A stretch of DNA of 64,000 nucleotides from positions 1,014,001-1,078,000 of the forward strand of contig NZ_CP011393.1 of NCBI RefSeq assembly GCF_001644665.1, written 5' to 3'. Numbering within the stretch: position 1 is the stretch's first letter; every line of letters starts with the position of its first letter. This stretch comes from Fervidobacterium pennivorans (GTDB lineage: Bacteria; Thermotogota; Thermotogae; Thermotogales; Fervidobacteriaceae). The notes beneath the pieces were generated by a model, which saw only the letters and a program-made list of their open reading frames with translations, did no database searches and had not been told where the DNA came from. Below, piece after piece: positions 33,919 through 62,196 of this stretch. Both the position numbers and the translations under genes were made by a program.

Positions 33919-33942
33919 GCAAATCCCTCCAACTCTTTTTTG

Positions 33943-34330
33943 GATAATGTTAACTAAAAGTATTGAAACTTTCCAAAAACCGCATTATCCTTTAAAGAGG
34001 GGACACCCCCCAACCATCTCTTGACAAAGGAGGTATCCCGATATGAACAACTCAACGCTCTCTTGTCCTAAATGCGGTTCCACCAGCTTATACAAAAACG
34101 GTCACGACAAATACGGTAACCAACAATTCCTTTGCAAACTCTGCCATCTTTCTTTCAAACTTTCCCATTCTCAAAAACGCAAAAACTTCCCTTTCCCTTA
34201 TCCCAAATGCACTTCTTGTGGTAAATCTAAGGTCTTTGTGTAGTGAAGAATCTTTGGAAAACGCACAATGGTAATATCAATCACATTCTTTCACACTTAC
34301 ACTCTTTCATCACTACAAGTTAACACTATC
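33943..34330 (+). mobile_element. Internally deleted insertion sequence (copy A), 388 bp
   Basis: Same element as copies B and C, with both 12-bp inverted ends (GATAATGTTAAC / GTTAACACTATC). It has lost ~670 bp of the transposase. The element is flanked by a perfect 8-bp direct repeat CTTTTTTG (33935-33942 and 34331-34338), so it is a genuine insertion with both ends intact. It could be moved in trans by copies B or C, like a MITE. Confidence 0.95.
34043..34323 (+). pseudogene. Truncated transposase remnant of copy A
   Basis: The first ~62 codons (zinc-ribbon region, CPKC...CKLC...CTSC) match the full transposases. The sequence then jumps, within CTSCGKS, to the last ~35 codons in a different frame and hits a stop at 34243. 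All catalytic residues of the DDE domain are missing, so it cannot be active. Confidence 0.93.
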
Positions 34331-51011: not shown

Positions 51012-52060
51012 GATAATGTTAACTAAAAGTATTGAAACTTTCCAAAAACCGCATTATCCTTTAAAGAGGGGACACCCCCCAACCATCTCTTGAAAAAGGA
51101 GGTATCCCGGTATGAACAACTCAACGCTCTCTTGTCCTAAATGCGGTTCTACCAGCTTGTACAAAAACGGTCATGACAAATACGGTAACCAACAATTCCT
51201 TTGCAAACTCTGCCATCATTCTTTCAAACTTTCCCATTCTCACAAACGCAAAAACTTCTCTTTCCCTTATCCCAAATGCACTTCTTGTGGTAAATCTATG
51301 CAAATTTACAAAGTCCGTCGCTCTTTCGTTGTCTTCCGTTGTAGAACCCGTCATACCAAAGATAGAGTACCTTTTAACCTCCCCGAACCAGTCACTTTTA
51401 TTCCTGAGAAATTTAAATATTTCCGTTTTCCTATCTACTTCATCTTAAAAGCTTTCGTTTTGTATATGAAACACAATATGTCTTATCGCTCTCTTGCTCA
51501 TTCTCTTAATATCAAAGTATCTCATGTCACCATATACAAATGGGTTATTAAATTGTGTACTTTATTCTCTGTACTTTTTCCAACATTTACCATCGAAAAT
51601 GTTTTCTCAGTTCATGCTGATGAAACTGTTCTTGTGTTCAAAGAACAAAAGTACTATGTTTGGCTATTAGTTGATCACGAAACTAACTTAATTCTTTGTT
51701 GGCATGTCTCAAAGTATCGTGATATGGGACAAGTCAAAGTGTTGCTCGAGAAGTTCTTTGGTAATTCAAAACCTAAAAACATTGAACTTATTACTGATGG
51801 ACTTGGTGCATATGAAAGTGCAGTAAAGCTGTTGTTTAGAAATATCAATCACGTAGTAGTACCGCTCGGTAAAAACATGTGTGAATCTAAGTTTTCATTA
51901 CTGAAAGACTTTTTCCGACTCAAGCGAGGGCTGAAGAATACGAAGAATTTAGCGAAATATATTCAAGGATTTTGTGTAGTGAAGAATCTTTGGAAAATGC
52001 ACAATGGTAATCTCATTCTTTCACAACTGCATTCTTTCATCACTACAAGTTAACACTATC
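51012..52060 (+). mobile_element. Insertion sequence copy B, 1049 bp
   Basis: Ends GATAATGTTAAC and GTTAACACTATC form a 12-bp inverted repeat with one mismatch (weaker pairing extends to ~26 bp). Perfect 8-bp target repeats TTTTTTCA flank it (51004-51011 and 52061-52068). It lies between lysC and the class III aminotransferase, opposite to their direction. Confidence 0.97.
51112..52053 (+). CDS. DDE transposase of copy B (IS6/IS240-like, with zinc ribbon)
   Basis: 313 residues. It has an N-terminal zinc ribbon (CPKC, CKLC, CTSC), then a helix-turn-helix-like NMSYRSLAHSLNIKVSH, then a DDE domain: HADETVL, ITDGLGAYESA and CESKFSLLKDFFRLKRG. The family label is tentative; 8-bp target repeats fit IS6. 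Compared with copy C it lacks one codon just before the catalytic Glu (KNMCES versus KNNQCES) and two codons near the end, so activity is doubtful. AAAGGAGGT precedes the ATG, and the stop lies in the right inverted repeat. Confidence 0.92.
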   Translation: MNNSTLSCPKCGSTSLYKNGHDKYGNQQFLCKLCHHSFKLSHSHKRKNFSFPYPKCTSCGKSMQIYKVRRSFVVFRCRTRHTKDRVPFNLPEPVTFIPEKFKYFRFPIYFILKAFVLYMKHNMSYRSLAHSLNIKVSHVTIYKWVIKLCTLFSVLFPTFTIENVFSVHADETVLVFKEQKYYVWLLVDHETNLILCWHVSKYRDMGQVKVLLEKFFGNSKPKNIELITDGLGAYESAVKLLFRNINHVVVPLGKNMCESKFSLLKDFFRLKRGLKNTKNLAKYIQGFCVVKNLWKMHNGNLILSQLHSFITTS

Positions 52061-52071
52061 TTTTTTCAATT

Positions 52072-53295
52072 TTACAAATCAAAAGCCTTGCAAATACTTT
52101 TCACCAATTCTTCTGCCACATTTTCTGGAACCAAAACGGAGATTTTGATTTCCGATGTTGTTATTAGCTCCGGTTCAATACCATGTTCGGAAAGCACTTC
52201 CAAAAGCTTCGAAGCAACGCCGTAATGAGACCTCATACCCGTTCCAACAACCGTAATTTTTGAAAATTTCCCATAGAAGTGGTATTTGGCGCCGTAATCG
52301 GCAAGTGTTTCGTTAAGCAGTTCTTCTATTTTGTCAAGCCTTTCAGGAACGACCGTGAACGACACATGTGTTGATGTACCGTTCTTTACAAGAGATATCA
52401 TGTCGACGTTTATCCCTTTCTCTGCAACTCTCTTAAAGATATCCGTTACCACTTTTGCATCATTTGGCAAGTCCATTATAGAAACCTTTACCTGATTTTT
52501 GTCCAAACTAACCCCTGTAACAAGTGGCTCTTCAAGCCATTCAGGTATTCTGTCAACCACCCAAGTTCCCTCCTCATCGTTAAATGATGAACCACAGTAC
52601 ACTCGCACGTTGTATTTCTTGGCTATTTCAACTGAACGTGAATGTAGTACTTTTGCACCCGTTGCTGCCATCTCAAGCATATCATCGTACGTAACATACT
52701 TGAGTTTCTTTGTCTCAGGATAAAGCTTTGGGTCACACGTATAAACACCTGCAACATCACTGTAAATCTCACAATCGCACCTTAATTTGGCAGCCAAAGC
52801 TACCGCCGAGGTATCGGAACCACCTCTACCAAGTGTTGTAAGATGCTCGTCTTCGGTAATTCCCTGGAAACCGGTTATCACAAGCACGTCGTAAATATCT
52901 AGATAATCTTTCAACTTTTTCGTGCTAATGTCTAATATTCTAGCATTGTTGTGGTTTTTCGTTGTCAAAATCTTTACCTGGAATGCATTTAGCGAAATAG
53001 CATTTACTCCTAAATCTTTTAATGCCATTGCAACAAGAGCACAAGAAGCTTGTTCGCCTGTTGTCAGTAACATATCTAACTCTCGTTCATCAGGTTTACT
53101 TGACACGCTCTTGGCAAGTGAAATTAAACTGTCAGTTGTCTTACCCATTGCAGAGACAACGGTCACCACTTTGTAACCTTCTTGGACTTTCTTTGCTATT
53201 CTGCGTGCAACGTTTCTGATTCTGTCCGGGTCAGCTACCGATGAGCCTCCATACTTTTGAACAACTATTCTATTTTGAATAATGTCCTTCGCCAA
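52072..53295 (-). CDS. lysC: Aspartate kinase
   Basis: 407 residues. VVQKYGGSSVAD and the GRGGSDTSAVALAAKL motif mark the kinase domain; two ACT domains fill the last ~150 residues (VSIMDLPNDAKVVTDIF..., ITVVGTGMRSHYGVAS), so feedback by lysine or threonine is likely. The frame is open to 53388, overlapping dapH by 62 nt; TTG 53295 with GGTGAGG 5 nt upstream gives a normal-length enzyme. GTG 53310 is an alternative. It follows dapH closely. Confidence 0.93.
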   Translation of the reverse strand: MAKDIIQNRIVVQKYGGSSVADPDRIRNVARRIAKKVQEGYKVVTVVSAMGKTTDSLISLAKSVSSKPDERELDMLLTTGEQASCALVAMALKDLGVNAISLNAFQVKILTTKNHNNARILDISTKKLKDYLDIYDVLVITGFQGITEDEHLTTLGRGGSDTSAVALAAKLRCDCEIYSDVAGVYTCDPKLYPETKKLKYVTYDDMLEMAATGAKVLHSRSVEIAKKYNVRVYCGSSFNDEEGTWVVDRIPEWLEEPLVTGVSLDKNQVKVSIMDLPNDAKVVTDIFKRVAEKGINVDMISLVKNGTSTHVSFTVVPERLDKIEELLNETLADYGAKYHFYGKFSKITVVGTGMRSHYGVASKLLEVLSEHGIEPELITTSEIKISVLVPENVAEELVKSICKAFDL

Positions 53296-53326
53296 TTTTT
53301 CCTCACCCACCTGCTCTTTGAATATC

Positions 53327-54073
53327 TTACTTGTTAATTTCTCTGAGACTTTCCAAAATTTGTGTCTTATTAGCTGTCTTTTCATCAACTTTTTTGATTA
53401 CCTTAGCTGGAACGCCTGCAACAACAGTGTAAGGCTCCACATTATTAACAACAACCGCACCGGCGGCAACAACGGCATGATGTCCTATTCTTACGCCTTC
53501 CAAAATCACAGCGTTCGCCCCAACGAGCACATAGTCCTCAATGACAACAGGTGTAGCACTTGGTGGTTCAACAACGCCTGCCACAACAGTACCAGCACCT
53601 ATATGACAATACTTTCCAATTCGGGCCCGTGCACCAATTACAGCGTTCATGTCAATCATTGTCCCCTCACCGATTACAGCGCCAATATTTATAACAGCCC
53701 CCATCATTACAACAGCCCTGTCACCAATTTCAACGAGCTCGCGGATAATTGCACCTGGCTCTATCCTCGCGTTGAATCGGGATATATCTGCCAGCGGAAT
53801 TGCTGAATTCCTAGCAATGTACTCCACTTTGTATTTTTCAATTCCTTCATTTCTAAGCACCTGTGAGATGGCTTCAAAATCCCCAAATAGTACTCCAAAA
53901 TCTTTCCCGACAACGAAATCAAATTCAAATTCTTCAGATTTGTACTTGCTAAAATCAACACTATCTAATCTTCCTGAAATGTACACCCTTACCAGGTCCC
54001 TTTTCTTGCTTTTCGCAATAATCTCGATAATTTCTTCACTTGTTAATTCTCTTGCACTCTTTTTAAAAACCAT
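53327..54073 (-). CDS. dapH: Tetrahydrodipicolinate N-acetyltransferase
   Basis: 248 residues. The N-terminal alpha/beta domain (SAREITSEEIIE-like) is followed by a left-handed beta-helix of hexapeptide repeats ([20 protein letters not shown]...), typical of the acetyl type DapH rather than the succinyl type DapD. It acetylates tetrahydrodipicolinate in the DAP pathway. GGAGGG supports ATG 54073 over the longer frame at 54091. It lies 20 nt after dapB. Confidence 0.92.
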
Positions 54074-54093
54074 CCTAACCCCTCCACTCACCG

Positions 54094-54774
54094 TTATCTG
54101 GCTTGCGCAGATTCCAAAACGTCATCGTAGCTAAAAAAGCCCTTTTCTTTTCCCAGAACAAACAGTGCAGCATTTCTTACACCTATCACAAACGCCCTTC
54201 TTGATAAAGCTCTATGCGTAATTTCAACAGTTTCACCTGAGTTAGAAAAAATCAACGTATGTTCACCAAAGATTCCACCAACTCTTATAGAGCTTATTGG
54301 TATCTCCCTGCCCAAAGCTTGCTTAAGCATCTTGGCAGTCCCGGATGGAGCATCCTTTTTCTGGTTATGATGAATTTCAACCATAGCTGCGTCCCAATCT
54401 TCGAAATAGCTCGCATATTCCTTTATAATTCTTTTTAAGATAGCGATTCCTGTTGAAAAGTTATAACTTTGAACCACGGGAACATGTTCTGATAGTTCTT
54501 TCAATCTTGAAAAATGTTCTTCGGTTAGCGCGGTTGTACCTATCACAAGTCCACAGCTGTATTTTCTGCACAGTTCAACTGTTTCAAAAACAGCATCAGG
54601 TGATGAAAAATCAATTATTACTTGCGGTCGCTCAATTTCTTCAAGAACCCCTCTATCTTTTCTCAAAACGCATAAATCACCTAACGAAGAGAAATAACTT
54701 TGAATTTCCACACCCATCTTCCCGTTTGCACCCACTAAACCGTATCTTATGTTCACTGTGTTTGGTCTATTCAT
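54094..54774 (-). CDS. dapB: 4-hydroxy-tetrahydrodipicolinate reductase
   Basis: 226 residues, slightly short for the family. The nucleotide-binding loop [10 protein letters not shown] is at the N-terminus, the catalytic region [15 protein letters not shown] in the centre. It reduces the product of DapA with NAD(P)H. GGGGGTGA precedes the ATG and remains intact after insertion of copy C just upstream. Before the insertion its ATG overlapped the dapA stop (ATGA). Confidence 0.94.
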
Positions 54775-54797
54775 TCTATCACCCCCAGTTCCTTAAG

Positions 54798-55856
54798 GAT
54801 AATGTTAACTAAAAGTATTGAAACTTTCCAAAAACCGCATTATCCTTATAAAGAGGGGACACCCCCCAACCAACTTTTGACAAAGGAGGTATCCCGATAT
54901 GAACAACTCAACACTCTCTTGTCCCAAATGCGATTCCACCAGCCTATACAAAAACGGTCACGACAAATACGGTAACCAACAATTCCTTTGCAAAGCCTGC
55001 CATCATTCTTTCAAACTTTCCCATTCTCACAAACGCAAAAACTTCTCTTTCCCTTATCCCAAATGCACTTCTTGTGGTAAATCTATGCAAATTTACAAAG
55101 TCCGTCGCTCTTTCGTTGTCTTCCGTTGTAGAGCTTGTCGTACCAAAGATAGAGTACCTTTTAACCTCCCCGAACCAGTCACCCTTATTCCTGAGAAATT
55201 TAAATATTTCCGCTTCCCTATCTTTTTCGTCTTAAAGGCTTTTGTTTTGTATATGAAACACAATATGTCTTATCGCTCTCTTGCTCATTCTCTTAATATC
55301 AAAGTATCTCATGTCACCATATACAAATGGGTTATTAAATTGTGTACTTTATTCTCTGTACTTTTTCCAACATTTACCATCGAAAATGTTTTCTCAGTTC
55401 ATGCTGATGAAACTGTTCTTGTGTTCAAAGAACAAAAGTACTATGTTTGGCTATTAGTTGATCACGAAACTAACTTAATTCTTTGTTGGCATGTCTCAAA
55501 GTATCGTGATATGGGACAAGTCAAAGTATTGCTCGAGAAGTTCTTTGGTAATTCAAAACCTAGAAACATTGAACTTATTACTGATGGACTTGGTGCATAT
55601 GAAAGTGCAGTAAAGCTGTTGTTCAGAAATATCAATCACGTAGTGGTACCGCTCGGTAAAAACAATCAATGTGAATCTAAGTTTTCATTGTTGAAAGACT
55701 TTTTCCGACTCAAGCGAGGGCTGAAGAATACGAAGAATTTAGCGAAATATATTCAAGGATTTTGTGTAGTGAAGAATCTTTGGAAAACGCACAATGGTAA
55801 TATCAATCTCATTCTTTCACACTTACACTCTTTCATCACTACAAGTTAACACTATC
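54798..55856 (+). mobile_element. Insertion sequence copy C, 1059 bp (most complete)
   Basis: Same 12-bp inverted ends as copies A and B, and perfect 8-bp target repeats TCCTTAAG (54790-54797 and 55857-55864). It inserted into the last codons of dapA, so the right end of the element now encodes the dapA C-terminus on the minus strand. The transposase frame is intact. Confidence 0.97.
54899..55849 (+). CDS. DDE transposase of copy C (IS6/IS240-like, with zinc ribbon)
   Basis: 316 residues, the longest of the three copies and probably the functional form. It has a zinc ribbon, helix-turn-helix, and DDE motifs HADETVL, ITDGLGAYE and NNQCESKFSLLKDFFRLKRG; the NN-x(2)-E spacing resembles IS6-type transposases. 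AAAGGAGGT lies before the ATG. It runs against the dap operon, so operon read-through yields transposase antisense RNA. Confidence 0.94.
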   Translation: MNNSTLSCPKCDSTSLYKNGHDKYGNQQFLCKACHHSFKLSHSHKRKNFSFPYPKCTSCGKSMQIYKVRRSFVVFRCRACRTKDRVPFNLPEPVTLIPEKFKYFRFPIFFVLKAFVLYMKHNMSYRSLAHSLNIKVSHVTIYKWVIKLCTLFSVLFPTFTIENVFSVHADETVLVFKEQKYYVWLLVDHETNLILCWHVSKYRDMGQVKVLLEKFFGNSKPRNIELITDGLGAYESAVKLLFRNINHVVVPLGKNNQCESKFSLLKDFFRLKRGLKNTKNLAKYIQGFCVVKNLWKTHNGNINLILSHLHSFITTS

Positions 55857-56746
55857 TCCTTAAGAATCCCCCTCAATTTTTCCACAGTTGATTCCTTTGG
55901 AGGAACAAGCGGTAGTCTAAACTCGTTGTTGAGTAATCTCATCAAGTGCATAGCCGCTTTAACAGGAAGTGGATTGGTTTCTATGAAAAGGGCTTTGAAC
56001 AATGGGATGAGCTCCATGTGAATTTTGAGGGCTTTTGAGATGTCACCTGAAAAGATTGCATTGACCATCTCTACCATCCGAGCGGGAACAACGTTCGAGG
56101 CTACAGAAATAACTCCCTTGGCACCTGCGCATATCATATGGAATGCTCTGTCATCGTTCCCAGAGTAGATGTAGAAATCAAGGTCCTTTGTCAGTCTGTA
56201 AATCTCATCGGATTGAGCAACATCAGGGTTAGCTTCCTTTATCGCTTTTATATTTCGACACTCCACTGCCAAGCGTGCCACGGTCTCAGGAGATATATTC
56301 ACACCGGTTCGGGAGGGAACGTTGTAGATGATAATTGGGACATCCAGGCGTTCTGATAGATACTTGTAGTGTGCATAAAGACCTTCTTGTGTGGGTTTGT
56401 TGTAGTAAGGAGTAACTATTAGTACGGCATCTGCACCAAACTTTTGAGCACTTAAAGAGAGTTCCAAAGTCTTTTTCGTATCATTGGTCCCGGTTCCAAC
56501 AATAACTTGAGCCTTACCTTCGCAAATTTCCTTTGTTAACGCTGTTAAACGTTCTCTTTCTTCAGCTGTCAAAGTAGCACCTTCTCCTGTTGTTCCAGCA
56601 ACGATGATAGCACTTACACCATTTTCAACCTGCCATCTCACAATCCTTTCATAACTTTCGTAATCAACCTCACCGTTAATGAACGGTGTTACTATCGCAG
56701 TTCCAACCCCGTGAAACATACGCATCTGACCTGATGAATTACTCAT
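55823..56746 (-). CDS. dapA: 4-hydroxy-tetrahydrodipicolinate synthase with IS-encoded C-terminus
   Basis: 307 residues. TTGEGATLT, YNVPSRTGV and the Schiff-base Lys region AIKEANPDVAQSD identify DapA, which condenses aspartate semialdehyde with pyruvate. The last ten residues (IVLTCSDERV) and the stop are read from the end of insertion sequence C. The flanks show that the original tail was LGVIE with the stop overlapping dapB. The change is distal and probably tolerated. ATG 56746 (GGGGGAG upstream) overlaps the dapF end by 8 bp. Confidence 0.94.
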   Translation of the reverse strand: MSNSSGQMRMFHGVGTAIVTPFINGEVDYESYERIVRWQVENGVSAIIVAGTTGEGATLTAEERERLTALTKEICEGKAQVIVGTGTNDTKKTLELSLSAQKFGADAVLIVTPYYNKPTQEGLYAHYKYLSERLDVPIIIYNVPSRTGVNISPETVARLAVECRNIKAIKEANPDVAQSDEIYRLTKDLDFYIYSGNDDRAFHMICAGAKGVISVASNVVPARMVEMVNAIFSGDISKALKIHMELIPLFKALFIETNPLPVKAAMHLMRLLNNEFRLPLVPPKESTVEKLRGILKEIVLTCSDERV

Positions 56747-57506
56747 GTTCGACTCCCCCTTCCAAATAGATTCCATCACTCTCAAAAATGACATTGAGAA
56801 TTCCGCCTTTTGTTTGAGCTGTTAATTTGTCTGGTATTTTGTTATCGCTAAGAATATAATACTTAACGAAACACGCTGTTGCCGTCGTCCCTGAACCGCA
56901 GGATAATGTTTCTCTTTCAACACCTCGTTCAAAAGTCCTAATCTCAAAGGTACTGGCGTCTAATACATTAAACAAATTAACATTGGCATCGAACTTATGT
57001 CTAAGCATCCTTGCAATTTCCATATCGAACCTCCAAATTGCTTTTCCGACGTTCATAACAAGGTGTGGTACACCTACTGTAATCAATATCCCTTCGAAAC
57101 CCGAAAGTTCTTCTTGAGGCACGAAATAATTAACAACAGGGTCTGGCATTTGGACAGAAATTCTTTCTCCAATGTATCCAACAAGCACGCCTGCGTTTGT
57201 TTCTATGCTGATTTTCCCAAAAGCGTCGAAATACTCTGAGAGAAATTTCAGAAACGCTCTTGCACCATTTCCACAAAAAGTTGCTCGTTTTCCGTCTCTG
57301 TTAAAATAATCCATAAAGAACCGCTTACTATGTTGTTCAACAAAGATAACTCCATCTCTGTCTTCAACAACTTCGAGCACAATCTTTTCCTTTGCCACAT
57401 CGTTTAGAGTTGTCTTCGTTGCATCGATAATGACAAAAGTATTACCTGCCGCCGAATATTTGCAAATTAAACTAACTCCAAGGTTTCTTAACTCATCTTC
57501 CCTCAA
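56739..57506 (-). CDS. dapF: Diaminopimelate epimerase
   Basis: About 255 residues. Both active-site cysteines are present, in TFCGNGARAF and ETLSCGSGTTA, as is the N-terminal KYSAAGNTFVIID. It converts LL-DAP to meso-DAP. The start is uncertain: no ATG is in frame; TTG 57506 overlaps the asd stop region, TTG 57527 is further upstream, and neither has an ideal ribosome-binding site, so translational coupling with asd is likely. Confidence 0.9.
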   Translation of the reverse strand: MREDELRNLGVSLICKYSAAGNTFVIIDATKTTLNDVAKEKIVLEVVEDRDGVIFVEQHSKRFFMDYFNRDGKRATFCGNGARAFLKFLSEYFDAFGKISIETNAGVLVGYIGERISVQMPDPVVNYFVPQEELSGFEGILITVGVPHLVMNVGKAIWRFDMEIARMLRHKFDANVNLFNVLDASTFEIRTFERGVERETLSCGSGTTATACFVKYYILSDNKIPDKLTAQTKGGILNVIFESDGIYLEGGVEHE

Positions 57507-58509
57507 CTTCCTTCGCCTCGCTTTCAAAAACTAAATCAGAATTCAACTGACTATGTAGCTTCAGAATCCTAACAGCATTCGTTGCAGCTCCAACTCTGAG
57601 GTTATCTGCCACAACCCACAATCCAAAGGTGTGCGCATCAAAGAGTCTTATCCTACCGACGTGGACGTAGTCATCACCAGCTACTTCTACTGGCGTAACG
57701 ATATCGTCATGAAGTATTACATCCTCACCTGAGGCAATAGTTTCTACTAAGTCTTCTTTTGACATTATTGGGAAGAGAGTTCGAGCTACAACACTTTCCG
57801 AATGTCCCACTCTAACAGGAACCCTTACAGTTGTTGGGAATACAGCGATAGACCTTGAATTCAATATTTTCCTTGTTTCGTTTATCATCTTCCACTCCTC
57901 TTGAGATATATCATCTTTTAAATCGCCTATAAGTGGAATGACGTTGTGGGCAATCTGTCTTGGGAAAACTGCATGTGTTGTATCACCGGCAAGTTGCCTT
58001 TCGTATTCAACAACTGCCTTATGACCTGCTCCAGAAACAGCCTGGTATGTTGAGACAAATATCTCGTGCAGATGGTATCTATCATGTACTCTGTAGAGTG
58101 CTAAGACCATTTGAATAGTTGAACAATTCGGGTTTGCAACGATTCCATGGTATCCCTTTAGCAGCTTCCCGTTTATTTCCGGAACAACAAGCGGAATTTC
58201 TGGGACCATTCTAAACGCAGATGAGTTATCAATCACCGTTGTTCCCGCTTGTGCTGCAATCGGTGCGTATCTTCTTGAAACATCTGCACCAGCTGAGAAA
58301 AGCAAATAGTCAAAACCTTCCCTCATAGCTTCTTCTGTAAGAACCTCGACCTTCACTTGTACACCTTTGAACGTTAAAGTTTGACCGGCTGACCTTTCCG
58401 ATGCAAAGAGTCTGAGTTCGGAAACTGGAACCTCACTTTTTTCAAGAACCTCAACCATCGTTCTTCCAACCGCTCCTGTTGCTCCTACAACACCGACTTT
58501 GAACCCCAT
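57493..58509 (-). CDS. asd: Aspartate-semialdehyde dehydrogenase
   Basis: 338 residues. GATGAVGRTMVE at the N-terminus binds NADP, the catalytic Cys is in ANPNCSTIQM, and QAVSGAG and the VPVRVGHSE His region follow. It makes aspartate semialdehyde for the lysine branch. AAGGAGG precedes the ATG. It is the first structural gene after a leader with an intrinsic terminator, so operon expression should depend on read-through. Confidence 0.96.
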   Translation of the reverse strand: MGFKVGVVGATGAVGRTMVEVLEKSEVPVSELRLFASERSAGQTLTFKGVQVKVEVLTEEAMREGFDYLLFSAGADVSRRYAPIAAQAGTTVIDNSSAFRMVPEIPLVVPEINGKLLKGYHGIVANPNCSTIQMVLALYRVHDRYHLHEIFVSTYQAVSGAGHKAVVEYERQLAGDTTHAVFPRQIAHNVIPLIGDLKDDISQEEWKMINETRKILNSRSIAVFPTTVRVPVRVGHSESVVARTLFPIMSKEDLVETIASGEDVILHDDIVTPVEVAGDDYVHVGRIRLFDAHTFGLWVVADNLRVGAATNAVRILKLHSQLNSDLVFESEAKEVEGR

Positions 58510-58560
58510 AACTGATACCTCCTTTTTTTATGATGGATTGGAGAATTTGTAAGCCTAATA

Positions 58561-58595
58561 AAAAAAGCGGGCTACAGTTTTTCACTGTAGCCCGC
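58561..58595 (-). terminator. Attenuator terminator of the lysine operon leader
   Basis: Minus strand: GCGGGCTACAGT (58595-58584) pairs over 12 bp with ACTGTAGCCCGC (58578-58567), loop GAAAA, then seven T. Its 5' arm (GCGGGC, 58595-58590) is also part of the competing antiterminator stem. It stands 52 nt before asd. Confidence 0.93.
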
Positions 58596-58672
58596 CTATG
58601 GTAGTCTTTTGTTACTGGCTTGCGTGGGTTTTTATCCCAAGCCAAACGCAAGCTGACCACCATAAAGCGGGC
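58590..58672 (-). promoter_or_regulatory. Antiterminator stem of the lysine operon leader
   Basis: GCCCGC (58672-58667) pairs with GCGGGC (58595-58590), and TATGGTGGTC (58664-58655) pairs with GACTACCATA (58606-58597) with one G-T. The enclosed sequence can form a smaller hairpin GGCTTG/CAAGCC. This structure and the terminator are mutually exclusive. Confidence 0.75.
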
Positions 58673-58751
58673 AGCTGCGTTTAGCTTTAGATTTCATATT
58701 GATTTCAACGTTCATGAAGTTCTCAATTGATAAATTTTGATAATCAAGCAC
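58632..58751 (-). CDS. 39-residue leader peptide of the lysine operon
   Basis: GTG start at 58751, preceded by AGGAGG (58767-58762) at 10 nt; stop TAA at 58634-58632. The middle of the peptide reads MKSKAKRSC, so three AAA Lys codons occur within five codons (58694-58680), directly before the first antiterminator strand (58672). The stop codon lies between the two antiterminator strands. A ribosome pausing at Lys codons would leave the antiterminator free; one reaching the stop would mask it. No homology was recognised; the coding claim rests on the ribosome-binding site and architecture. Confidence 0.65.
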   Translation of the reverse strand: MLDYQNLSIENFMNVEINMKSKAKRSCPLYGGQLAFGLG

Positions 58752-58837
58752 GTTATGATGTCCTCCTGACTCAATCTCATTAAATCTCTGTTTTACTTGT
58801 TTTTTCTCACTTTTTCTAACGTAACATATTTGGCTTT

Positions 58838-58868
58838 ATTATATCACAAAACTACCATACCTTGTCAA
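58838..58868 (-). promoter_or_regulatory. Promoter of the asd-dap-lysC operon
   Basis: Minus strand perfect TTGACA (58868-58863) and perfect TATAAT (58843-58838) with a 19-bp spacer; the start site near 58830 gives a leader of ~320 nt. Confidence 0.7.
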
Positions 58869-58882
58869 TACATGATTTTAAC

Positions 58883-58910
58883 TAAAAAAGCCCTCCGTTA
58901 AAAGGAGGGC
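58883..58910 (-). terminator. Terminator of the sucC-sucD-yitT transcript
   Basis: Minus strand: GCCCTCC (58910-58904) pairs with GGAGGGC (58896-58890), followed by TTTTTT. Confidence 0.9.
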
Positions 58911-58944
58911 AAGACTATGAGCAAAGAACATGGGAAGGGATTTA

Positions 58945-59808
58945 TTATACAATCTCTTTGAAACCTTCTCCGTAAACATACCTTGCCTCGTTCACAAGAA
59001 AGAAAGCTTTTGGATCAACAGTTCTGATTGTATTGACCAATTCATGAAGTTTTCGTCTTTTCAAAACAATCAACAACACATTACGTGGCAAGCCAGTATA
59101 CCCTCCTTTGGCTTCGAAGACAGTGCAACCTCTACCTAATTCCGATAAGACAAAATCCTTGATTTCGTCAATCTTCTCGGAAACGACCCATACATTTACG
59201 GAAAGTTCCAAGCCCTTCAATACAAAGTCTATGGTTGTTCCGTTGACTATTATGGCAAGTATCGAATACAAACCCGTATCAATGTTGTAAACGAGCCCTG
59301 CGGCAAGACCTATGGCAAAGTCGATGAACAATATTGACATACCAAATGGTGCACCAAAAAACTTGTTCAATATCTTTGCAATAATATCAGTTCCACCTGT
59401 CGAGGCGTTTTGGGAAAACGCTATAGCCATACCAATGGCAGTTAGTATATCCCCAAAGAATACAGCAAGAATTACGTCTTTACCTTGATACTTGTAAATA
59501 GGCAATATCCTGTCGAAGAAATCTATCAAAAAATTCAGCAAAAAAGTGCAATATATCGTTTTAAAACTGAAGTCAAATCCTATTATCAGAAATGCTGTCA
59601 GAAAAAGTGTAATATTTATGATATACATCCATATACCCACTGAAAGTGGGATTAATCTGTTCAAGACTATTGCAAGACCTGAAGCTCCACCAGCCGCGAT
59701 GTTATTTGGAATAAGGAAAATAACCAACCCCAGAGCTGTGAGCAATACTCCAAAGGAAGAGAGGAAGTATTCCTTTACCAAATTCTCCAAGCGTCTTTCA
59801 CTTCCCAC
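58945..59808 (-). CDS. YitT family membrane protein
   Basis: 287 residues. The first ~200 residues hold five or six membrane helices (VLLTALGLVIFLIPNNIAAGGASGLA is the family's opening signature); the C-terminal ~85 residues are the cytosolic DUF2179 domain (GRGCTVFEAKGGYTG). Function unknown; some relatives are linked to transport of small solutes. GTG start, overlapping the sucD-like stop by 34 bp, so it is co-transcribed under the cobalamin riboswitch. Confidence 0.88.
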   Translation of the reverse strand: MGSERRLENLVKEYFLSSFGVLLTALGLVIFLIPNNIAAGGASGLAIVLNRLIPLSVGIWMYIINITLFLTAFLIIGFDFSFKTIYCTFLLNFLIDFFDRILPIYKYQGKDVILAVFFGDILTAIGMAIAFSQNASTGGTDIIAKILNKFFGAPFGMSILFIDFAIGLAAGLVYNIDTGLYSILAIIVNGTTIDFVLKGLELSVNVWVVSEKIDEIKDFVLSELGRGCTVFEAKGGYTGLPRNVLLIVLKRRKLHELVNTIRTVDPKAFFLVNEARYVYGEGFKEIV

Positions 59809-61711: not shown

Positions 61712-61745
61712 GAAAAATACCCCCAAAAATCGATGGTTTTTGGGG
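61712..61745 (-). terminator. Terminator of the cobalamin riboswitch expression platform
   Basis: Minus strand: CCCCAAAAA (61745-61737) pairs with TTTTTGGGG (61729-61721), then GTATTTTTC. It lies between the aptamer and sucC, so B12 binding likely controls termination. Confidence 0.8.
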
Positions 61746-61753
61746 CACCCATT

Positions 61754-61918
61754 CCCTTAAAGGCAGGTCTCCCGACTCGTGGATCACCCTACTCCCTGCG
61801 CCTTCCCAGCATTAAAGCCAGTGGCATTTTGCAGGTTTCGTCCCCACTCACGGTGGCCCGACCGTCCCGGATTTTCACCGGAGTTCCCTTTTAAGCACGT
61901 AAGTGCACCTTTAAGGGG
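61754..61918 (-). ncRNA. Cobalamin (B12) riboswitch aptamer
   Basis: On the minus strand the closing stem CCCTTAAAGG / CCTTTAAGGG surrounds the conserved core. Visible are GGTGAAAATCCGGGACGG, GGGCCACCGTGAG, and the B12 box GAGTCGGGAGACCTGCC (61778-61762). The match to the cobalamin riboswitch class is strong. It is ~70 nt upstream of sucC with an intrinsic terminator between. No clear promoter was found in the AT-rich DNA up to 62196. Confidence 0.95.
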
Positions 61919-62196
61919 AGGGAGTATTAAATTTTTGTGATTTAAAATTCTTATTATCCAACAAAAATGCTAACTTACTCGTTTGCAAAAATCAACCCCA
62001 AACTAATGACCTTTTGAGGCTATTAATAGCTGTTAAACGACAACATTTAATTATTTTCACGTTTTGCTTTTGTTCCGTTAACTCTATAAAGCAGAAAGAA
62101 TTTCCCAGCACGCACAGTATCGAAAAAATAAACGCTATCTTAATCTAAGTTTATCAATAGAAAGCAAAGTAAAATCAATATTTACAAGCATAGCGA

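Follow-up and report, generated by a model that had tools for sequence, protein, structure and literature searches.

Ribosome-coupled attenuation is regarded as a mainly proteobacterial (and actinobacterial) strategy, and the genes for lysine synthesis as the territory of the L-box riboswitch. The His, Leu, Thr and Trp leaders are represented in Rfam, Ile/Val and Phe attenuators are mentioned besides, and a gammaproteobacterial origin has been suggested for ribosome-mediated attenuators (PMC3766115, 2013). A lysine riboswitch is stated for most Thermotogales species (PMC3766115), and a survey of this riboswitch, in whose text Fervidobacterium does not appear, assigns one before a lysine operon to all Thermotogae species (PMC5584792). 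The latter statement does not hold for Fervidobacterium, for family f2 and for others. In the literature searched we found no description of lysine-codon attenuators or of attenuation in Thermotogota; an earlier prediction is possible.

The window analysed here is a stretch of 64,000 nucleotides from the genome of Fervidobacterium pennivorans. An earlier note, made from the letters of the sequence, had placed upstream of its lysine/DAP operon a leader-peptide attenuator and not a riboswitch. The analysis described below leads us to consider it very probable that the asd leader controls transcription by ribosome-coupled attenuation, with the charging of tRNA-Lys as the signal.

The leader upstream of asd

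The controlled operon is transcribed from the minus strand and begins with asd (57493..58509; NCBIfam NF011456, 361 bits versus a cut-off of 223), whose Shine-Dalgarno sequence is located at 58523-58518. Downstream follow dapF, dapA, an IS insertion, dapB, dapD and lysC (52072..57527), each gene scoring above the cut-off of its NCBIfam model, with dapD being of the acetyltransferase type. No homoserine dehydrogenase (PF00742) was found in any of the 20 searched genomes of the own family (f1), while the same model was present in 14/14 control genomes. Hence asd most likely serves lysine/DAP alone in this family, as is likely for Fervidobacterium itself, and lysine is the one signal that such an operon would naturally follow. 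The IS that splits the operon between dapA and dapB extends over 54798-55857 (transposase ORF 54899-55849, plus strand) and is missing from that junction in the close relative G004 (L103). A second copy is found after lysC at 51012-52061, and a degraded one near 33936-34330.

Read on the minus strand from 58868 to 58509, the region contains in this order a promoter, an AGGAGG sequence, a 39-codon ORF, a terminator and asd. The promoter (58838..58868) consists of TTGACA at 58868-58863, a spacer of 19 nt and the extended −10 element TGATATAAT at 58846-58838. A consensus promoter scan with spacers of 16-18 nt missed it on account of the spacer length; a promoter of like layout, with spacers of 18-19 nt, is present in the leaders of relatives. 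In the genome G002 the same IS as in the operon (98.7% identical; L104:7541-8602) abuts the leader upstream, at the place of the promoter in the other species, and transcription of that leader may start from the adjoining IS. The Shine-Dalgarno sequence AGGAGG (58762..58767) precedes the leader ORF (58632..58751), which starts with GTG and encodes MLDYQNLSIENFMNVEINMKSKAKRSCPLYGGQLAFGLG followed by a stop codon. Within it, the stretch AAA TCT AAA GCT AAA (58680..58694) provides three AAA codons in five positions, as the earlier note had pointed out together with promoter, AGGAGG and ORF.

The RNA of this leader can adopt two arrangements. Strand A (58672..58685) and strand B (58641..58655) are the 5′ and 3′ arms of a protector hairpin, A:B, with a fold energy of −25 to −34 kcal/mol, and strand C (58655..58671), the 5′ antiterminator strand, is located in its upper part; A:B is able to close once B has been transcribed. 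After the stop codon TAA (58634-58632) a copy of A, strand A′ (ACGCAAGCC, 58617..58625), can pair alternatively with B inside the antiterminator. The 3′ antiterminator strand C′ (58591..58606) pairs with C (58671-58655 with 58606-58591) over about 16 pairs with one bulge, and overlaps the base of the stem of an intrinsic terminator (58560..58595; 12-bp stem 58595-58584/58578-58567, T7 at 58566-58560). The 16-bp antiterminator pairing that shares a terminator arm had been noticed before, with coordinates right within 1 nt, and so had the 12-bp terminator with its T-run and the position of the leader stop codon between the two antiterminator strands. The long A:B hairpin taking up the antiterminator strand, as well as the post-stop strand A′ pairing with B, go beyond that earlier reading. 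Folding of the leader beats that of its shuffled versions (z = −6.5, 0/200 shuffles). The parts are thus present as listed, and their arrangement exceeds chance, since it is kept in nine genomes of two genera and its stems covary in wider relatives.

Comparison of positions 58300-59100 with Rfam at gathering and at permissive thresholds gave no family near its gathering score, only sub-threshold chance matches. The lysine riboswitch (RF00168), which was recovered in the control Thermotoga maritima, has no match in the leader or anywhere in the F. pennivorans genome; the T-box (RF00230) has none in the leader, and the His, Leu, Thr and Trp leader families are unmatched throughout the window and at ten related loci, the latter giving no other Rfam regulatory family either. 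These results support the choice of an attenuator over a riboswitch. In the whole window Rfam recognizes a cobalamin riboswitch (61745-61927, minus strand, 117 bits) and a tRNA, both outside the leader.

Control codons and alternative stems in the relatives

The gene asd was found in 19/20 genomes of family f1, and nine asd leaders were compared, namely those of F. pennivorans, G001-G005 and G008 from its own genus (g1) and of G009 and G010 from the sister genus (g2); the incomplete assemblies G006 and G007 stand outside this count. The element precedes asd in all nine. Every one of them has the ORF in the same frame, a purine-rich ribosome site, variable N-terminal residues and the codons AAA GCT AAA, and the stop codon is located exactly 37 nt past the start of strand C (9/9). 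In g2, Ser is replaced by Gly and Leu by Pro in concert, and the two changes convert an A-U pair of A:B to G-C, so that what is kept is the RNA pair and not the peptide. Two observations count against the attenuator reading: leaders of the own genus contain just two or three Lys codons, and the TACAG/CTGTA segment of the terminator is invariant in g1 and g2, with no alternative partner to explain it. An exact-pattern scan of genome contigs returned two contigs only, both from genomes already in the sample.

A covariance model built on the nine leaders (R1) found elements beyond the own family, and a second one built on 16 elements (R2) lengthened the list further; targets were identified via the ORFs downstream of each element. 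Elements are linked to dapA (L042, L044, L058), to dapD (L043, L045, L064-L069, L083), to dapF (L081), to asd (L046) and to the homoserine dehydrogenase gene hom (L048). Genome G078 has two of them, one each on dapA and dapD, and G076 has three, with Lys codons before dapD and dapA and Thr codons before hom. The reverse-strand matches of the models were rejected as self-complementary stems. Weak matches in G054, G062, G071, G074, G013, G018 and G019, together with G021:C18, G008:C6, G004:1140646, G002:628891, G076:357528, G000:266088 and several others, were discarded as well, lacking matched codons or a biosynthetic gene and looking like ordinary terminators or chance.

Strand C starts with CCCG, the exceptions being CCTG (G021) and TCCG (G082f). 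A Lys codon is located exactly 11 nt before C in 23/23 elements on asd, dapA, dapD and dapF, as AAA in 10 and as AAG in 13; in the F. pennivorans leader it is the codon at 58682-58680. More Lys codons are found 14, 17 and 20 nt before C, in combinations that change between elements. In the hom element the same four positions, 11, 14, 17 and 20 nt before C, are occupied by Thr codons (ACA ACA ACT ACA). The wider relatives keep Lys only, the next residues being R/H/C and then S/N/Y, and the other two reading frames contain 99 and 75 stops in all elements together. The comparison of asd leaders proposed in the earlier note bears out its expectation in every readable leader of the Fervidobacterium type, where ORF, stop and Lys codons are retained, with AAA/AAG exchange in the wider circle and, as also anticipated, covarying stems. 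It fails for the Thermosipho-like genera g3-g5, which have an L-box before asd.

Two versions come from more distant relatives. On the aspartate kinase of family f8 (L073) a somewhat different element reads KKQVKYSP, its final Lys codon preceding C by 9 nt. In G030 a leader ORF (L105:1501-1597, minus strand) that contains a run of five Asn codons and is accompanied by a competing terminator precedes asparagine synthetase A (388 bits versus a cut-off of 309) and is a candidate asparagine attenuator. In G025 a leader ORF with spaced Phe codons (QQFVFAFRTKPSCGFV; L107:1501-1606) and a C:C′ pairing of −25 kcal/mol is followed by a gene for a TrpX-like ABC transporter binding protein, which scores below the NCBI cut-off; the leader is possibly an aromatic amino-acid attenuator. 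Genes for an amino-acid permease or for an ABC binding protein of family 3 are likewise preceded by relatives of the element (L070, L071, L080, L082, L116). Their leaders have mixed Lys/His codons (RKHDKY, KHHAKY, KKHHVKY, KHYNR) and perhaps sense more than one basic amino acid.

The pairings were evaluated in two ways. In the alignment of 16 elements, A:B and the terminator have 95.5% standard pairs and 12 pairs altered on both sides, a result attained in 0/500 shuffles and falling to 0-4 when the partners are slid. In 17 representatives, with L082 (G084t) excluded from this test and from folding, the energy of each strand paired with its true partner was set against 10,000 random reassignments of partners. 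For C:C′, without the shared CCCG/CGGG, it was −19.8 versus −11.9 (sd 0.9) kcal/mol permuted, for A:B −20.1 versus −14.9 and for B:A′ −17.6 versus −12.3 kcal/mol, with 0/10,000 reassignments as good in each case; these figures are not strict probabilities, since some of the representatives are closely related to one another. All 16 aligned elements, the Thr version included, share the terminator core CGGGCTA/TAGCCCG without variation, and stem sequences outside this core are free to covary. Such invariance exceeds what the alternative pairing requires, and a common origin is one reading of it.

Proposed model and rival explanations

Judged by its sequence features, the leader appears to resemble a classical amino-acid attenuator and to possess what defines one in testable terms, although it falls outside every Rfam leader family. 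Frame, start region and stop of the ORF are kept in the nine asd leaders, and an ORF is present in the wider relatives. The control codons correspond to the end product of the genes they precede (Lys in 23/23, Thr before hom and Asn before asparagine synthetase A), antiterminator and terminator are mutually exclusive through the overlap of C′ with the terminator base, and an intrinsic terminator lies ahead of the first structural gene.

Taking together the anatomy of the leader, the conserved frame, the identity of the control codons with their fixed register and the covariation of the alternative stems, we infer that the leader is translated and responds to lysine through ribosome stalling and a kinetic race, and propose the following model. 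The ribosome would start on the leader ORF close behind RNA polymerase. When Lys-tRNA is scarce, it would stall on the AAA codons. A ribosome reaches about 12-13 nt beyond its A-site codon on the downstream side; with a Lys codon 11 nt before C, it would thus cover strand A and leave C almost entirely accessible. Pairing of B with A′ and of C with C′ would follow and occupy the terminator stem at its 5′ base, and the polymerase would continue into asd-dapF-dapA-dapB-dapD-lysC. When lysine is plentiful, the ribosome would reach the stop codon and depart, allowing A:B to close and to sequester C before C′ is made, and C′ would be free to build the terminator.

In equilibrium folding with A covered and the 3′ arm of the terminator not yet made, C:C′ with B:A′ inside forms with P about 0.99. 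With A free and the last bases of the terminator not yet made, C:C′ still wins, and in the complete transcript with A removed the base of the terminator is still preferred (P(C:C′) about 0.3), because the contest is limited to the CGGG base and is fought by equal sequences. Equilibrium folding alone gives no switch, and hence a kinetic co-transcriptional race must be assumed, in which the hairpin formed first would decide the outcome while the polymerase crosses the T-run, in line with the view taken of other attenuators.

Between the Lys codons and the vicinity of the stop, the peptide sequence is almost invariant in Fervidobacterium and the sister genus, as would be expected if the nascent peptide KAKRSCPL..GGQLAF, on sensing lysine or some other ligand within the exit tunnel, stalled the ribosome in the style of TnaC or SpeFL. 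The invariant residues coincide, however, with paired RNA, and the joint Ser to Gly and Leu to Pro change in g2 preserves a base pair. The residues upstream of the Lys codons, by the criterion taken from TnaC and SecM, vary, with non-synonymous exceeding synonymous changes in 6/7 pairs. Wider relatives retain Lys alone, and the hom element has Thr instead. An arrest peptide, which the earlier note had kept as an alternative, is very unlikely on these grounds; the lack of conservation upstream and the Thr codons in the same register before hom largely answer that concern. A different source of stalling would be the Arg, Cys or Pro of the leader, or translation speed in general, given that CGC, AGC, TGC and CCG come after the Lys codons in Fervidobacterium. 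Those residues either vary among the relatives or are set by the pairing, while Lys alone is constant, at the fixed register and on lysine genes in 23/23 elements, so that tuning to them has hardly any probability left.

The very high nucleotide conservation in g1 and g2, both terminator arms included, would also suit direct sensing of lysine by a riboswitch or protein-binding RNA of a kind not yet described, the ORF being incidental. Conservation of the frame, of the start region and of the exact stop position argues against it, as do the interchange of AAA and AAG, the Thr and Asn versions that fit their target genes, the free covariation of stem sequences outside the core and the lack of any Rfam match; we hold direct sensing to be scarcely probable. 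Ribosome-coupled attenuation governed by lysine codons remains the preferred reading, and in our view the switching of codons with the target gene is the strongest indication of codon-specific stalling.

Distribution in Thermotogota and comparison with known systems

No genome searched combines the L-box with a strong attenuator match. RF00168 is present in 57 of 103 Thermotogota genomes and in 0 of the 20 with a strong attenuator match (E < 1e-10 with model R2), counts that are not phylogenetically independent. Attenuators are found in part of f1, in f2 and in f5, riboswitches in part of f1, in f3, f7, f9 and f10. In the f1 genera g3-g5 the riboswitch is located directly before asd (110-127 bits), where the attenuator is missing. 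The distribution agrees with the suggestion of the earlier note that a Lys-codon attenuator would be an unusual replacement of the L-box. Taken as a whole, the elements probably represent a phylum-wide, codon-programmable attenuator scaffold (A:B and C:C′, with a core that is usually CGGGCTA) that is retargeted via codons at one fixed register, with Lys for asd, dapA, dapD, dapF and lysC, Thr for hom, Asn for asparagine synthetase A and probably Phe or Lys/His for transporters, and that alternates in evolution with the lysine riboswitch on the lysine operon. The homoserine dehydrogenase gene of G081 (L091) showed neither a leader nor a terminator of the matching kind.

In related genera the same operon is governed in one by a direct lysine sensor and in the other, most likely, by a sensor of tRNA charging, a natural replacement in which both strategies can be compared. 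An attenuator implies tight coupling of transcription and translation in thermophiles, whose RNA stems have to rearrange at high temperature. Attenuators specific for lysine and asparagine would moreover lengthen the list of known specificities.

With the trp, his, thr and leu leaders (RF00513, RF00514, RF00506, RF00512) the Fervidobacterium leader shares a short leader ORF, translated in those systems, control codons for the product of the pathway, alternative antiterminator and terminator structures and a stop codon between the antiterminator strands. It differs from them in having Lys as its control codons, a specificity that PMC3766115 does not name, and in occurring in Thermotogota, whereas the origin suggested for that class is gammaproteobacterial (PMC3766115). 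In addition, its antiterminator strand is enclosed by a protector hairpin and its antiterminator is completed by a further stem, B:A′; antiterminator and terminator share no more than the base of the latter, and Rfam has no match for the leader. The L-box (RF00168) occupies the same place before the same lysine operon in g3-g5, but it senses lysine directly and without translation. The T-box likewise responds to the charging of tRNA and is able to control a terminator; unlike the Fervidobacterium leader, it binds the tRNA directly and does not need a leader ORF.
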